From: Bacilli bacterium
GTDB lineage: Bacteria; Bacillota_I; Bacilli_A; RF39; UBA660
Direction of reading: 5' to 3'
Length of the DNA: 33,216 bases
Assembly (NCBI GenBank): GCA_017964405.1
Contig: JAGCSA010000057.1
Location: 1 to 33,216 of the forward strand
Shown piece by piece: positions 4,847 to 19,165 of this stretch. The notes under the pieces were generated by a model. The model was given only the letters and a program-made list of their open reading frames with translations, was not told the origin of the DNA and ran no database searches. A program made the position numbers and the translations under genes. Each line of letters opens with the position of its first letter. Position 1 is the first letter of the stretch.

Positions 4847-5866
4847 ATGAAAAAGAATAAATCCATGATATTAGGTTTTCTTTTACTAGTACTAAGTTTA
4901 GGTTTAGGATATGCTTTTTTAACGACAACCCTAAATATCGAAGGAACAACGGATGTAGATGCGAATACTTGGCATGTATATTGGGATAATGTACAAGTAT
5001 TAGATGGATCTGTAGAAGCAACAACTCCAACGATTGATGCCAATCAAACAACTGTTACTTATAGTGCACATTTATCAAAGCCAGGAGATTATTTTGCATT
5101 TACAGTAGATGCCATCAATGACGGATCAATCGATGCCATGATCGATACAATTCATTATATGACGAATGGAGTGGAGTCAAATTACAGTACTGAGTTACTT
5201 CCTCCTTATATTTATTATGCAATATCCTATAGTGATTCTGGAAGAATTGGAGAATACCATTTATTAGAAAGTGGACAAACCGAAACATACTTAGTGTGGA
5301 TAGAATATGACAGTAGCGTGAATGCATCGGATCTTCCAAGTGAAGCATCTTCTATTACTCTTTCTTTTGGAGTAGATTACGTCCAGTCAGATGAAACATC
5401 AACAGAAGAGTATACTGCTTATACGATTACAAGTCTAGAAAGTTTCTATAAAAGAGATAAAGTATTTGTCTCTGGCCCTGTAAGATTTAATAATTATAAT
5501 GATGCTTTAAATGCATTTGAGAATATGCAATCTTTTATAAGATATCATGTAAAAAAGAATAGAATTCAAGGAGCAGAATTAGGATTTGTAAAGAATGGGA
5601 ATGTATATTATTTATATCCAGACCCAGATAAGTTTGAGGAACAAAAAGAATTATTAGAAAGTATCTTTGGAGAGAGTAATTGTAATCACTATGGAGAAGG
5701 TACAACAGATGAGCAATACAACTGTTATATGTATCAAGAAAAATATCGTGTTGAATTGAATAAATACCGTGGAGCATCATCAAGCGTTATGATTAACGGA
5801 TATACTCCATATTCTTGCTCAGTGGGTAGAATATCTTTCTCATGCAATCCTGGATTAATGTCATAA
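4847..5866 (+). CDS. Exported protein with SipW-type signal peptide (TasA/camelysin-like N-terminus)
   Basis: Secreted or surface protein of 339 residues, first of a tandem pair. The N-terminus has a Lys-rich start, a hydrophobic core (about 7-25, ILGFLLLVLSLGLGYAFL), then T-T-T-L-N-I-E-G-T-T-D and a W-x-V-x-W segment. This resembles SipW-dependent matrix proteins such as TasA/CalY. A beta-rich region follows (about 45-180) with P-G-D-Y-F-x-F-T-V-D-A-x-N-D-G-S-I-D-A-M. The C-terminal part (about 185-339) has L-G-F-V-x-x-G-N-V-Y-Y-L, then ESIFGESNC and several Cys. It has no sorting signal and no recognised catalytic motif. It has its own extended -10 and terminator. The fold and exact family are unknown to me; export is well supported and a matrix-fibre role is only analogy. 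Confidence 0.85.
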   Translation: MKKNKSMILGFLLLVLSLGLGYAFLTTTLNIEGTTDVDANTWHVYWDNVQVLDGSVEATTPTIDANQTTVTYSAHLSKPGDYFAFTVDAINDGSIDAMIDTIHYMTNGVESNYSTELLPPYIYYAISYSDSGRIGEYHLLESGQTETYLVWIEYDSSVNASDLPSEASSITLSFGVDYVQSDETSTEEYTAYTITSLESFYKRDKVFVSGPVRFNNYNDALNAFENMQSFIRYHVKKNRIQGAELGFVKNGNVYYLYPDPDKFEEQKELLESIFGESNCNHYGEGTTDEQYNCYMYQEKYRVELNKYRGASSSVMINGYTPYSCSVGRISFSCNPGLMS

Positions 5867-5931: not shown

Positions 5932-5953
5932 TTTATTATAGGATTGTGAGTAT

Positions 5954-6994
5954 ATGAGAAGAGCTAGGAAAAAAACTTTATTCATGGGATTTCTTTTATT
6001 AGTATTAACTCTTGGTTTAGGATATGCCCTTATCACAACTACTCTTAATATTGAGGGAACAACGGATATCGATAGTAATACATGGAATGTCTAATGGAAT
6101 AATCTTCAATTCTATGGAAACGAAGAAATTGTCATTCAAGAACCAACAATCAATCCTAGTAAACCATCTCAAATTACCTACCAGATTACGTTAAATGAAC
6201 CAGGAGATCGTTTCTGGTTCAAAGTGGATGCTGTAAATGATGGATCCATCGATGCCATGATTAGTAGTATTACCCAAACAATAAATGGATTAGATATTTC
6301 CAATTTACCAGTTTATTTAAAATATACGATTAAGTATATGAATGGATTACCTGTTCACGAAAATCAATTATTAAGATCCCATGAAAGAATAACCTATATG
6401 GTTGAAATCAAATACAGAAATGATATTGATCCATCTTATTTACCAAGTTCTCCAACTCCATTATCTTTGTCTATGGATATTCCTTATGAACAAGCAGATG
6501 GAACAGGAGAAGAAATTAATGGATATGAATTTTTATACAATGTCTTGCCATTTAAAGTTGGAGACTCCTTGCCAGATTATGACATAGAAGGACACCTTAC
6601 CTATCAGGAAGTAATGGTGAAAAGTAAAAGACCTTTCTTTATTAGGACGTTTATTAATGATAATAAATTTGAAGAAGCTAAATTGGGATTCGTATATCAA
6701 AATAATCTGTACTATTTAACACCAATGGGGGCAACGTATAATGAATCCTATAATGGATACAATTATGATAGTATTTATTATGAACCAAACAAAGAATTAT
6801 TACTAAGTATCTTTGGAGCAGAAAATTGCAATGAAGATGGATATGATAATTTCAAGACCTTTATTTGTGGTAAAGATAATTTAACGGTAGACATAACTAA
6901 TTTGGGAATGGTTGGTGCTGTTGGATATGGTGATACAGTAGGAGGTTGCTCGATTGCAACAGATGGAGAATTCAATTGCTATTTTGATTTCTAG
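5954..6994 (+). pseudogene. Second SipW-type exported protein, interrupted by one TAA codon
   Basis: Paralogue of the gene at 4847, with the same signal peptide pattern (about residues 10-28) and T-T-L-N-I-E-G-T-T-D after it. The frame from ATG 5954 is open for 46 codons, stops at TAA 6092-6094, and then stays open to 6994. Where the intact copy reads H-V-Y-W-D-N, this one reads N-V-stop-W-N-N, so a Tyr codon (TAT or TAC) became TAA by a single change. Downstream, P-G-D-R-F-W-F-K-V-D-A-V-N-D-G-S-I-D-A-M, L-G-F-V-Y-Q-N-N-L-Y-Y-L and four late Cys are all kept, with no other lesion. The promoter and ribosome site (GGATTGTGAG) look functional. Restart at ATG 6224 would give a 256-residue piece without signal peptide. 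Causes could be recent inactivation, strain variation or a sequencing error. Confidence 0.85.
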
Positions 6995-14700: not shown

Positions 14701-16344
14701 ATGAAAAAAATAAAAATCTTATTATTCGTATTAGCTATATTTATGATAGCACCAGTAGTAAAGGCAGCAGAATTGCCTCAAAGTGGAGTAACTTATTTCT
14801 TACAATATCCAAATAGAAGAGAAGATGCTACAACAAGTTATCAAGAAGCAACGAATCCAAAAGAACAATTGATCTATACAGCAACTACTGATAAAAATGG
14901 ACAAGTTTTATTGTGTGACTGGAATAAAGAAGGAACGATCCGTGTTGTTCAACATGTACCAGATGGATATACAACAAACGAAAGAGAAATTTCACTAGAT
15001 TTATCCAACACCAATAACATTAGTTTTATTGATTACCGAGGACTAAGCAATCCGAATACAGGAAGAACTCTTTTATTTATAGTAGTAATCATGAGTGTGA
15101 TTGCCATCACATTAGTTGCGAGAAAGAATAAAAAAGTATTATTCATCATTCCAATAGTAGCAATCACAGTCTTTGTAAATAAAGCAAATGCAACAAATGA
15201 TTGTTTTACAATTCAAATTAACGATGGTTCAGGGAACCCTTTAAGAAGTGTTCAAGTAGATGTCTATGCAAAACCAACGAATGTAGAAGCAAACCCAGCT
15301 GTTAAATTTGTAGCAGCAGGAGGAAGATTCTTTGATGGAACAACCATAGCTTATATGAGATTGCCATATAATTCTATAACAGCAGATGAGTTCTGGAACA
15401 CGATGCCAGTAGAAGATGCAGATTATTTTGATGATAATATGATGCATGCAACAAGAGAAGGATATTACTTAGATGGATATATCTTCCCAGATGTATTAGT
15501 AAACGGAACAGAAATACCAGCAGATTGGATGGAAGATAATTCAGCAAGAGTATTTGAAATTAGAGGAAATGGGGGAACCTATGACTTCTATGGAAAACAA
15601 TTAACGAGTGTCTATTCCTATGAAGAAAGCGATATTCTAAAATATGCACCTAGATTTATCAAAGGAGATAGTTATTATATTGGATTTGATGATAATGCAG
15701 CATGTTCTGCCTACAATAACTATGGAATCCATGATACTTATGTAGAACTACCAGATATTATGACTTTTGCAGGTACTACGATTTTGAGCAGTACACTAGG
15801 AGATGAAATGTCAGAAACCGTTTCTAGTAGCCCATCTATCCAAACCTATGTTTATTATGATTGTTGGAATAATAGACCAGATGGTATCTACATCAATGAT
15901 ACAGTCTTCTTAGGAAAACCAGAAACCTGTTTCTTTGAATCTTTCTTGCATAAAGATTCTGGAGACTATTACTTTATTAACAATACATACAATAAAAGTA
16001 TCTATGCAGGATATTATCAAGATTTACCATTCAGCTTTAGTGCTATTTATAATTCTTATACTGATAAAGATGGAAATAATAGTCCAAAGAAACGAATGAT
16101 AATGCCAGAAGGAATTGAATCTGAAATTCCCGACAATTCACGAGAAGCTGTCAATAAGATTGAAGTCGTTCGAAATGGAGTAACCATTTTAACTATTAAT
16201 TCATCAGAAATAACAAATTATCAAGACGCAGAAGCATCCTTTGTCATTACTAATGATGAGAAAAGACAAATACTAGAATCTTATTTAGAAGAAATGAATC
16301 AATATGAATGTATAACAAGAGCATCAGCAATTCAAGGGTTATAA
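14701..16344 (+). CDS. Surface protein made of two exported modules joined by an internal sorting signal, copy 1
   Basis: Exported protein of 547 residues, first of two tandem paralogues. It starts with a classical signal peptide (1-22, ending V-K-A-A). Module 1 (about 23-116) looks like a prealbumin-like SpaA/Cna-B pilin domain: TTDKNGQVLLCDW..GTIRVVQHVPDGYTT. It ends with N-P-N-T-G (117-121), a hydrophobic stretch (124-140) and R-K-N-K-K (141-145), which together form a complete sortase-type sorting signal. The chain does not end there. A second hydrophobic stretch (146-159) leads to K-A-N-A-T-N-D (161-167), a likely signal-peptidase site. Module 2 (about 165-547) is Cys-containing and starts C-F-T-I-Q-I-N-D-G-S-G-N-P-L-R-S-V-Q-V-D-V-Y-A, again Cna-B-like. 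Cys also occur in DDNAACSAY, YYDCWNN, PETCFFE and YECIT. The function is unknown; no sortase gene is in the window. Confidence 0.88.
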   Translation: MKKIKILLFVLAIFMIAPVVKAAELPQSGVTYFLQYPNRREDATTSYQEATNPKEQLIYTATTDKNGQVLLCDWNKEGTIRVVQHVPDGYTTNEREISLDLSNTNNISFIDYRGLSNPNTGRTLLFIVVIMSVIAITLVARKNKKVLFIIPIVAITVFVNKANATNDCFTIQINDGSGNPLRSVQVDVYAKPTNVEANPAVKFVAAGGRFFDGTTIAYMRLPYNSITADEFWNTMPVEDADYFDDNMMHATREGYYLDGYIFPDVLVNGTEIPADWMEDNSARVFEIRGNGGTYDFYGKQLTSVYSYEESDILKYAPRFIKGDSYYIGFDDNAACSAYNNYGIHDTYVELPDIMTFAGTTILSSTLGDEMSETVSSSPSIQTYVYYDCWNNRPDGIYINDTVFLGKPETCFFESFLHKDSGDYYFINNTYNKSIYAGYYQDLPFSFSAIYNSYTDKDGNNSPKKRMIMPEGIESEIPDNSREAVNKIEVVRNGVTILTINSSEITNYQDAEASFVITNDEKRQILESYLEEMNQYECITRASAIQGL

Positions 16345-16450: not shown

Positions 16451-16474
16451 GATAATGGGAAGGTGGAAAGGTAT

Positions 16475-18022
16475 ATGAAGAAAACTTTCAAATTATTATT
16501 AGTCGTATTATTAGGATTTGCCTGGATACAAGTAGCAAATGCCAAAGTGCCATTAACGTTACCAAAAACAGGAGTAACTTACTTTATGATGTATCCAGAT
16601 GGAGAGGAGATTGCAACAGAAAACTATAATGAAGCAATCAATCCCCAAGAAAGATTATTGTATACAGAAGTTACCGATGAGAATGGATTTATCTATTTAT
16701 GTGATTTAACATACGTTGGACAATTAAGATTAGTACAACATGTACCAGATGGATATACAACCAATGAAAGAGAGTTAAGAATTGATTTAACAGATCCAAA
16801 TGTTACTTCTGCAAGCTTTATAGATTACAGAGGTCTTAATAATCCAAGTACTAATAGAACATTAATTGTACTATTAGGAGTAATAGGAGTTGCCGGAGTT
16901 TCTTTCCTAGTATCAAGAAAAAATAAAAAGTCTTTATTGTTAATACCAATTGTAATTGTAGGAGTATTAACGATCTATCATGTTCATGCAACAAATGATA
17001 AGACTAAAGTTTGTTTCCCTATTCAAGTAAAAGATGGAGCGGGAAATGCTTTAAGAGGAGTAACCGTAGATGTATATGGAACACCAGATGTAACAGCAAA
17101 TCCAGCCATAAAAGTAGATGCCAATGGTGGATACTTTGCAGATGGAACAACCATTATGTATATTAGAATTCCTTATGAAGGCTGCGATGTAGAAGAAATG
17201 ATAGATGCATTATCTCAAGAACAAAGAGATGCTATTGATTACAATATAGCATATAGTTACAGATTGGGATATAGACGAACTTCTATGGATGCACCTTCAG
17301 TGTTACATAATGGAGATGTTATCTACCTACATTGGACAGAAGATGGAGGTATTAAACTAGCAACCATTCATGGAAATGGGGGAACCATTGAAGTAAATGG
17401 TAAGAAATACGATCAAATTCAAAATTATCAAGAACAAATTCTAAGTATTGCAAGCACTGCCTTAATGACTAAACTAAATGAAAGATATATTGGAATTGAC
17501 GATAATCAAAATTGTAGTCACTATGGATCAAATGGTATGCTAAAACAAAATGCTTATATTAACTATGATGCAACAGATTTATATGCATGTTGGAATGCAT
17601 TACCAGATGGAATCTATGTTAATGATGAATTATACTTTAAAGGAAACGATGATTCTTGTTTTAATGAATCAGAATTTGAATATGACAGCAATGGATATAC
17701 ATTATACAAGAATTACGGAAGAGGATATTACGAATTAGATGTATATATTGAGAATAATAATATCCCTCACTTCTACTTATCATATGAAGAAACAATTGGT
17801 CGTTCTCAACAATATAGAGAAGAATTAGATGGAGTAATTAATAATAGTCAAGAAATTACTTCTATCAAATATGTTAAAAATGGACAAGTAATTGTATTCT
17901 ATGAAGCGGGAGATCTTGTACTAGAAAATGGTTCTTATAAAGCAACCAACCAAACTAAGATAGAAGAACAAAGAAATTATGAACGCTTGATTGGATCTAA
18001 ATGTGTCACTCATAATGAATAA
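16475..18022 (+). CDS. Surface protein made of two exported modules joined by an internal sorting signal, copy 2
   Basis: Tandem paralogue of the gene at 14701, 515 residues, same architecture. Signal peptide 1-23 (ending V-A-N-A). Module 1 (about 24-122) has VTDENGFIYLCDL..GQLRLVQHVPDGYTTNERE and S-F-I-D-Y-R-G-L, nearly the same as copy 1. Then N-P-S-T-N (123-127, the sortase B type N-P-x-T-N), a hydrophobic stretch (130-147), R-K-N-K-K (148-152), a second hydrophobic stretch (153-168) and H-V-H-A-T-N-D (169-175). Module 2 (about 173-515) starts V-C-F-P-I-Q-V-K-D-G-A-G-N-A-L-R-G-V-T-V-D-V-Y-G. It keeps the Cys positions of copy 1 (DDNQNCSHY, LYACWNA, DDSCFNE, GSKCVT). I use ATG 16475; a GTG four codons upstream overlaps the GGGAAGG ribosome site. 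Its promoter is far stronger than that of copy 1. Confidence 0.88.
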   Translation: MKKTFKLLLVVLLGFAWIQVANAKVPLTLPKTGVTYFMMYPDGEEIATENYNEAINPQERLLYTEVTDENGFIYLCDLTYVGQLRLVQHVPDGYTTNERELRIDLTDPNVTSASFIDYRGLNNPSTNRTLIVLLGVIGVAGVSFLVSRKNKKSLLLIPIVIVGVLTIYHVHATNDKTKVCFPIQVKDGAGNALRGVTVDVYGTPDVTANPAIKVDANGGYFADGTTIMYIRIPYEGCDVEEMIDALSQEQRDAIDYNIAYSYRLGYRRTSMDAPSVLHNGDVIYLHWTEDGGIKLATIHGNGGTIEVNGKKYDQIQNYQEQILSIASTALMTKLNERYIGIDDNQNCSHYGSNGMLKQNAYINYDATDLYACWNALPDGIYVNDELYFKGNDDSCFNESEFEYDSNGYTLYKNYGRGYYELDVYIENNNIPHFYLSYEETIGRSQQYREELDGVINNSQEITSIKYVKNGQVIVFYEAGDLVLENGSYKATNQTKIEEQRNYERLIGSKCVTHNE

Positions 18023-18091: not shown

Positions 18092-19165
18092 ATGAAAAAG
18101 AAAATAGGATTGGGAATCATTTTATTATTAATTTGTATGATTCCCATGGTAAATGCAAAAGGAGAAGAAGAGGAAGAATTAGAGAATTTTGTAGCAGGAG
18201 AAAGTGTTGTATTAAATGAAAGAATCGGATCAACTGCTTTTATTGCAGGAAATATGGTCGATGTACAAGCAGGAGTTGATGGAGCATCTTTCATTGCAGG
18301 AAATGCAGTCAATGTTTCCAATACACAAGATTATTTATTTGTAGCAGGTAATAATATTACGATCTCAGGAATGGGTACAAAGGATGCTTTTGTAGCAGGA
18401 AATTCCATTCAGATTAAAGAATCAGCTGTAAGAGATTTTTATGCATCCGGATCTACGATTCGAGTAGAATCTCCCATTACTAGAAATGCATATTTAGCAG
18501 GAGATGTAGTCATCATTAATTCTGAAATTAAAGGAGATGTCTATGTTGCCAGTGATTCTCTTCAAATTGGAGAAAAAGCGGTCATTGGAGGAACATTAAA
18601 ATATCCAAAAGAAGCAAAAGTAGATATTTCAAAAAAAGCAAATATTGCGAATACCAAAACTTATAAGGGAAGCGATTATGGTAAAAAATTAAATATATTA
18701 GATTCTGTAATCATTCCAACGATTATTTCTTATGTATCTTTATTATTAATTGCATTCATCTTATTATGGGTTCGTAAGAAAGACTTCGATAAAGTAGGAA
18801 AAGCAGAAAAAACACCAATTCATTGTTTAAAAATGTTTGGAATTGGATTTGTAGGATTAATTGTCATTCCAGTAGCAGCTTTCATTATGATGTTAACATT
18901 AATTGGAATTCCATTAGGGTTCATTGTAATCGCAATCTATTCAATATTCGCTTATTTATCTTTTATTCCAACATCATTCTATCTAGGAAAATGGTTCTTA
19001 AAAGATAAAATCAAGAATAATTTCTTATTATTAACCGTATCTTTATTCATCCTTTATATTATCAAAATGATTCCTTATTTAGGAGGATTCATTAGTTTTA
19101 TTGCCATCTGTATTGGATTCGGTTTCTATGTATTACAAATGAAAGAATGGATTAAGATCAAATAA
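18092..19165 (+). CDS. Bactofilin-like polymer-forming protein with C-terminal membrane domain
   Basis: The 357-residue protein joins an exported repeat domain to a polytopic membrane domain. Residues 1-22 are a signal peptide (ending V-N-A-K). Residues about 28-185 form short repeats of F-x-A-G-N/E-x-V-x-V type (FVAGESVVL, FIAGNMVDV, FIAGNAVNV, FVAGNNITI, FVAGNSIQI, YLAGDVVII), the right-handed beta-helix pattern of bactofilins. Residues about 205-355 hold four or five transmembrane helices (starting VIIPTIISYVSLLLIAFIL). Cytosolic bactofilins lack the signal peptide and membrane part; this arrangement matches a common Firmicutes protein of unknown role. The repeat domain should be outside the cell if the signal peptide is used. 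The start at 18092 follows AGGAGGAG. Confidence 0.88.
   Translation: MKKKIGLGIILLLICMIPMVNAKGEEEEELENFVAGESVVLNERIGSTAFIAGNMVDVQAGVDGASFIAGNAVNVSNTQDYLFVAGNNITISGMGTKDAFVAGNSIQIKESAVRDFYASGSTIRVESPITRNAYLAGDVVIINSEIKGDVYVASDSLQIGEKAVIGGTLKYPKEAKVDISKKANIANTKTYKGSDYGKKLNILDSVIIPTIISYVSLLLIAFILLWVRKKDFDKVGKAEKTPIHCLKMFGIGFVGLIVIPVAAFIMMLTLIGIPLGFIVIAIYSIFAYLSFIPTSFYLGKWFLKDKIKNNFLLLTVSLFILYIIKMIPYLGGFISFIAICIGFGFYVLQMKEWIKIK

Follow-up and report, generated by a model that had tools for sequence, protein, structure and literature searches.

Sorting signals are normally defined at the C-terminus of a protein, which is also, to our knowledge, where they are searched for; internal sorting signals are therefore probably missed. 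In the stretch of DNA analysed here (referred to as the window; 33,216 nucleotides of contig JAGCSA010000057.1 from a Bacilli bacterium), a gene located at positions 14701-16344 raises the question of why a class-B-type sorting signal would be present in the middle of a surface protein, directly followed by what resembles a second signal peptide. The answer that we favour, with a probability of roughly 0.7, is that the window protein and its relatives are co-translational polyproteins giving rise to two surface proteins, and that the block at 15049-15192 would represent a two-in-one junction, in which one basic patch serves both a complete class-B-type sorting signal and a cleavable Sec signal peptide located internally.

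Organization of the window protein and its paralogues

An earlier note had described N-P-N-T-G, 17 hydrophobic residues and R-K-N-K-K in mid-protein, with R-K-N-K-K doubling as the n-region of a signal peptide at residues 146-164 that ends in K-A-N-A. Translation of the gene confirmed this layout to the residue, and the features of the window protein and of its tandem paralogue are as follows.

14701-16344, plus strand: two-module surface protein gene, 547 aa (open frame; 9 full-length homologues)
14701-14766, plus strand: N-terminal signal peptide, residues 1-22, cut between VKA and A (sequence; clade consensus)
14767-15048, plus strand: module 1, residues 23-116, beta-rich domain with no Pfam match over cut-off
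15049-15063, plus strand: NPNTG sorting motif, residues 117-121 (sequence; N, P and T invariant in 10/10 homologues)
15064-15120, plus strand: first hydrophobic stretch, residues 122-140, stop-transfer part of the sorting signal
15121-15135, plus strand: R-K-N-K-K, residues 141-145, shared between the sorting signal (as its basic tail) and the second signal peptide (as its n-region)
15136-15192, plus strand: internal second signal peptide, residues 146-164, for which a signal peptidase I site is predicted between A164 and T165
15193-16341, plus strand: module 2, residues 165-547, from T165 (15193), C-terminal anchor absent
16475-18022, plus strand: tandem paralogue of the same layout, 515 aa when counted from the ATG at 16475
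16841-16855, plus strand: NPSTN motif of the tandem paralogue
16916-16930, plus strand: R-K-N-K-K of the tandem paralogue
16931-16990, plus strand: internal signal peptide of the tandem paralogue, ending H-V-H-A
16991-18019, plus strand: module 2 of the tandem paralogue

Residues 124-140 of the window protein constitute the 17 apolar residues (LLFIVVIMSVIAITLVA), while residues 146-164 read VLFIIPIVAITVFVNKANA, the last four being K-A-N-A. The sorting signal is not C-terminal, as its basic patch is followed by 402 more residues, and the protein carries the N-terminal Sec signal peptide that is expected of a class B sortase substrate. No Pfam or NCBIfam profile scored over its cut-off against the window protein, CnaB/SpaA-type and other Pfam surface domains included, and a PDB sequence search with this protein returned no match. 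Its predicted structure was of low confidence (mean pLDDT 50); this poor model displayed two separate beta-rich regions connected by a low-confidence link at residues 113-166, and a fold search performed with it gave no significant match.

The tandem paralogue, for which the list of open reading frames gives a GTG start at 16463, was shown to exhibit ~38-40% identity to the window protein, with the block at the matching position. The block was also identified in four further genes of the same genome; a second tandem pair is located on contig C32 (NPKTA...VKA and NPVTS...VVA), and C3 (NPKTG...KKNKK...VWA) and C12 (NPITS...VNA) carry the same block on two proteins with unrelated modules. The tandem pair in the window is immediately followed by a gene for a 357-aa membrane protein (18092-19165, plus strand), the repeat region of which is weakly bactofilin-like, under the Pfam cut-off. 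The window furthermore contains two neighbouring TasA/camelysin-like genes (4847-5866 and 5953-6994). The 5953-6994 gene has an in-frame stop ~45 codons in, and is annotated from a late GTG start at 6224; its immediate upstream neighbour is an intact paralogue, and the gene itself seems to be either a copy in decay or the product of a sequence error.

Distribution of the block and diversity of its modules

Across the genomes searched, 121 internal NPxT-TM-basic-TM-AxA blocks were retrieved, of which 119 were retained after two false ones had been dropped by eye. Based on reading of the loci, the block is present in ~119 distinct proteins from about a dozen genera, all within one uncultured Bacilli family. 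Matches to the block profile were obtained in 27/39 genomes of the genus, and a broader profile matched in 140/291 genomes of the family, C-terminal signals counted too. Outside the family, where one profile each was run over 395 genomes of the class and 392 of the phylum, only C-terminal or doubtful matches were observed. A genome contig scan with an alignment of four paralogues gave no match.

All genomes included in the analysis are MAGs. Judged by polC, the nearest named relatives are MAGs that carry the labels Bacilli, Bacillales or Erysipelotrichaceae, and many of the polC-nearest relatives were derived from the gut of sheep, goat, deer or rabbit. In a sheep rumen MAG (L135), a homologue is located behind polC, matching the position in the window. 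An artefact of assembly or of MAG construction was considered and rejected, since the layout recurs behind polC in this independent MAG and in many genomes.

The common type of module 1 is a ~130-residue domain that is not represented in Pfam; it gave only weak Ig-like matches and distantly resembles TasA/camelysin-like proteins encoded in the same genomes. It is combined with at least two dozen unrelated module-2 groups, which range from ~110 to 1,800 residues and include DUF285 repeats, Listeria-Bacteroides repeats and DUF6273. With a duplicated protein described below (L115) as the clear exception, module 2 is devoid of a sorting signal of its own in nearly all complete cases. No stand-alone wall protein formed by the common-type module 1 was seen among the module-1 profile matches in the genus. 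Comparable modules occur fused in the absence of the block in some sister proteins, suggesting that module 1 and module 2 act together.

Conservation of the sorting motif and presence of sortases

In the ten full-length homologues, which had been found by whole-protein similarity and not by motif, the N, P and T of the sorting motif and the Ala at position -1 of the internal site are invariant (10/10), and position -3 is always A or V, with freely varying surrounding membrane residues. A profile of the common-type module 1 (alignment A3, block excluded) was searched against the genus, so that homology was assigned independently of the motif. NPx[TS] was found directly after module 1 in 92/95 members of this profile, and 43/46 previously unseen matches carry it. 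As the tandem paralogue and the motif-independent homologues keep the motif, the internal block is more than chance, and a chance motif was rejected accordingly.

In both spacing and composition, internal signals were shown to correspond to the family's C-terminal NPxT signals. The distance from the N of the motif to the first K/R has a median of 26, compared with 27 in 51 C-terminal signals, and the fifth residue is Gly in 54% of internal and 55% of C-terminal signals, followed by S/N/K/A/F/Y. The motif, hydrophobic stretch, basic patch and spacing of a class B substrate are all present in the internal signals. Two members, L265:892-1971 (minus strand) and L312:761-3664 (plus strand), lack the Pro of NPxT (NEKT and NAFT, respectively) and retain the second signal-peptide-like stretch; they represent naturally occurring variants in which the two presumed cleavages could be told apart. 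A protein of 1505 aa (L301:1058-5572, plus strand) contains two copies of module 1, with an NPxT block after the second copy only.

Seven sortases are encoded by the window's genome, two of which (L019 and L021) score above the class B (TIGR03064) cut-off, while two more represent weaker class B matches. Class-B-like sortases were identified in 39/39 genomes of the genus, in 35 of them above the cut-off, and in five genus genomes class B sortases adjoin genes with a C-terminal NPxT (L021/L217, L216, L220, L221 and L229). The absence of sortases from the genome and loss of NPxT among homologues had been named in the earlier note as observations that would overturn its proposal, and neither was encountered. 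L019 (contig C49, 4415-5398, plus strand), a class B sortase extended at its N-terminus by a long segment, is an orphan to which no substrate gene adjoins; similar forms of 310-340 aa occur in much of the genus. L019 is a candidate for the general NPxT enzyme.

Signal peptide features of the second hydrophobic stretch

To characterize the second hydrophobic stretch, it was compared with N-terminal signal peptides and with control membrane segments, which were picked from the same genomes by a simple rule; the cleavage site was chosen by a best-match rule, applied likewise to the controls. Pro plus AxA was observed in 77% of the 121 blocks, compared with 67% of N-terminal signal peptides and 5% (14/268) of control segments (Fisher p ~2e-48 for enrichment relative to control membrane segments after basic patches). 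The clade ending P-x-x-V-x-A is common to the N-terminal signal peptides and the second stretch of the same proteins, and the median distance from the last charge to position -1 is 18 in both. A weight matrix trained on N-terminal signal peptides only distinguished the second stretch from 271 control membrane segments with an AUC of 0.94, the scores of the second stretch being well under those of the training set. By these statistics, the second hydrophobic stretch belongs with the signal peptides of this clade and not with ordinary membrane segments.

Position -1 is Ala in ~116/119 blocks, the exceptions being G, S or C; 118/121 blocks were AxA-type by rule, which missed one true -1 Cys. The internal site thus combines an n-region, a core of 10-15 residues and small residues at -3 and -1, as is typical of signal peptidase I substrates, and a signal peptidase I is encoded by the window's genome (C21, 150.8 bits). 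The residues following the cut differ between the two kinds of site, being often L/I-C at internal sites vs E/K at N-terminal sites. Approximately half of the common-type internal sites read A, then L or I, then C, with the cut after the A and a conserved Cys at +2. Because this Cys is mostly found at +2, behind L/I, the internal site does not conform to a lipobox ([LVI][ASTVI][GAS]C), and an internal lipoprotein site was rejected.

A natural in-frame duplication was found in L115 (2041-5283, plus strand; 1081 aa), in which a complete wall protein is repeated head to tail. Its two mature parts have the same start right after AxA, as the first signal peptide ends in VNA and continues with KSMTAVEYIESIASNNNADK, and the internal stretch ends in FPFFVSA and continues with KSMTAVEYIESIASNNNADK. 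Both copies end in TKDLLTNPKT, where the first NPKT leads into the internal block and the second into an ordinary C-terminal sorting tail. The copies share 55% identity overall and are near-identical at both ends. The internal stretch of L115 sits exactly at the position required of a signal peptide, with a sorting signal of its own for each copy. In the DNA, the ends are ~87-97% identical and the middle has diverged, as if the ends had been homogenized by gene conversion.

Proposed processing and alternative explanations

Under the polyprotein reading, module 1 would cross the membrane behind the first signal peptide and stop at the first hydrophobic stretch, after which the basic patch would remain inside and the second hydrophobic stretch would restart export. 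Signal peptidase I would then cut after A164, leaving module 2 free outside the cell, and a class B sortase would cut the NPxT motif after Thr120, attaching module 1 to the cell wall. Each gene would consequently yield two surface proteins in a 1:1 ratio, one anchored to the wall and the other released, a ratio that is fixed only if both cleavages are efficient. Sequence and statistics document both signals, how well they are conserved, and that the two enzymes are encoded. We infer the cleavages at T120 and A164 from the enzymes present and from viral, Clostridioides difficile and Staphylococcus aureus precedents; how efficiently they occur, which sortase acts and what becomes of module 2 are likewise predictions.

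Several observations count against the polyprotein reading. An anchorless module 2 would be lost to the medium unless bound to something, the absence of stand-alone common-type module 1 is odd if the two halves are independent, post-cut residues differ between sites, and L265 and L312 are without the Pro of NPxT. Docking of module 2 on module 1 was considered mainly because of the blockless joining in sister proteins. It is conceivable, albeit tentative, that the family as a whole possesses a display system resembling viral polyproteins, in which a wall-anchored module 1 would be paired 1:1 with a swappable secreted module 2 that may dock non-covalently; module 1 would then be a holder secreted together with the variable adhesin-like domains it carries.

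The earlier note regarded an uncleaved hairpin anchor, with both stretches in the membrane and two outside domains on a single chain, as the simpler alternative. Such a hairpin is topologically sufficient, module 2 is without any other anchor, and related TasA/camelysin-like proteins of the clade carry similar modules on one chain without the block. However, a hairpin leaves the conserved cleavage sites unexplained, i.e. the near-invariant Ala at -1, V/I/A/T at -3 and Pro near -6, which are rare in controls and shared with N-terminal signal peptides, as well as the invariant NPxT and the restart of the L115 duplicate at the mature N-terminus. It has therefore lost ground and is considered unlikely.

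If, alternatively, signal peptidase were to cut and NPxT were to go unused by sortase, module 1 would be held in the membrane by the first stretch. The evidence is indeed stronger for the signal peptide than for the sortase, and L265 and L312 keep the second signal peptide without the Pro of NPxT; yet NPxT is otherwise near-invariant, with a fifth-residue range and spacing as in C-terminal signals, and class B sortases occur throughout the genus, which makes this arrangement decidedly improbable. The converse, in which sortase cuts and the second stretch persists as an uncleaved anchor, would link module 1 to the wall and module 2 to the membrane, thereby supplying an anchor for module 2. The released C-terminal piece of a C. 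difficile construct was membrane-associated, but this construct was without a second signal peptide (PMC5569036). The conserved AxA and short core are features of a signal peptide and not of an anchor, so that this converse arrangement is very unlikely.

The polyprotein reading, as advanced in the earlier note, is thus supported, and it survives the computable challenges in that sortases are present, NPxT is conserved and the second stretch is signal-peptide-like. If confirmed, it would mean that bacterial wall proteins include a class synthesized as polyproteins, the junction of which is processed by two different enzymes in turn, amounting to natural fixed-ratio co-secretion. It would also explain many 'membrane-hairpin' surface proteins in gut Bacilli, and the junction would provide a compact genetic element with which the display of one protein could be combined with the secretion of another.

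Comparison with known systems

No case of natural internal sorting signals, internal LPXTG, second signal peptides or sortase polyproteins was found in the open-access literature, which is weak evidence as subscription papers are mostly outside it. As far as found, the layout is known from viral polyproteins and apparently undescribed for bacterial wall proteins. Viral polyproteins show that the Sec pathway can handle an internal signal peptide preceded by a stop-transfer sequence, and in those of the flavivirus type the junctions between structural proteins are cut by host signal peptidase. The likeness lies in two membrane stretches between exported domains, the second being the signal peptide of the next protein; here, in contrast, the system is bacterial, and the first product bears a sortase signal and is expected to become wall-bound. 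The cytochrome b/c1 precursor of Bradyrhizobium (fbcH) is a bacterial precursor that is likewise cut at an internal signal peptide, but it comprises membrane respiratory proteins of a Gram-negative organism with no sortase. TasA/camelysin-like proteins of the same genomes have a weakly similar module 1 and a related module 2, whereas the NPxT/signal-peptide block is absent and their signal peptide is of a different type.

Class B sortase substrates (NPxTN/NPxTG; (S/P)PxTG for C. difficile SrtB) have the same signal peptide, NP-x-T, hydrophobic stretch, basic patch and sortases, whereas here the signal lies in mid-protein and a second exported module follows. For each of the two presumed cleavages there is a bacterial precedent: SpsB, the signal peptidase of S. 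aureus, removes the extracellular domain of LtaS, a membrane protein (PMC12445088), and C. difficile SrtB cleaves CD3392 with CwpV repeats appended behind the sorting signal, the cleaved C-terminal piece staying membrane-associated (PMC5569036). The engineered CD3392-CwpV protein resembles the window protein in that its sorting signal is internal, with a further domain following, and that a class B sortase is present, but it is an artificial construct, the appended part of which is without a signal peptide (PMC5569036).
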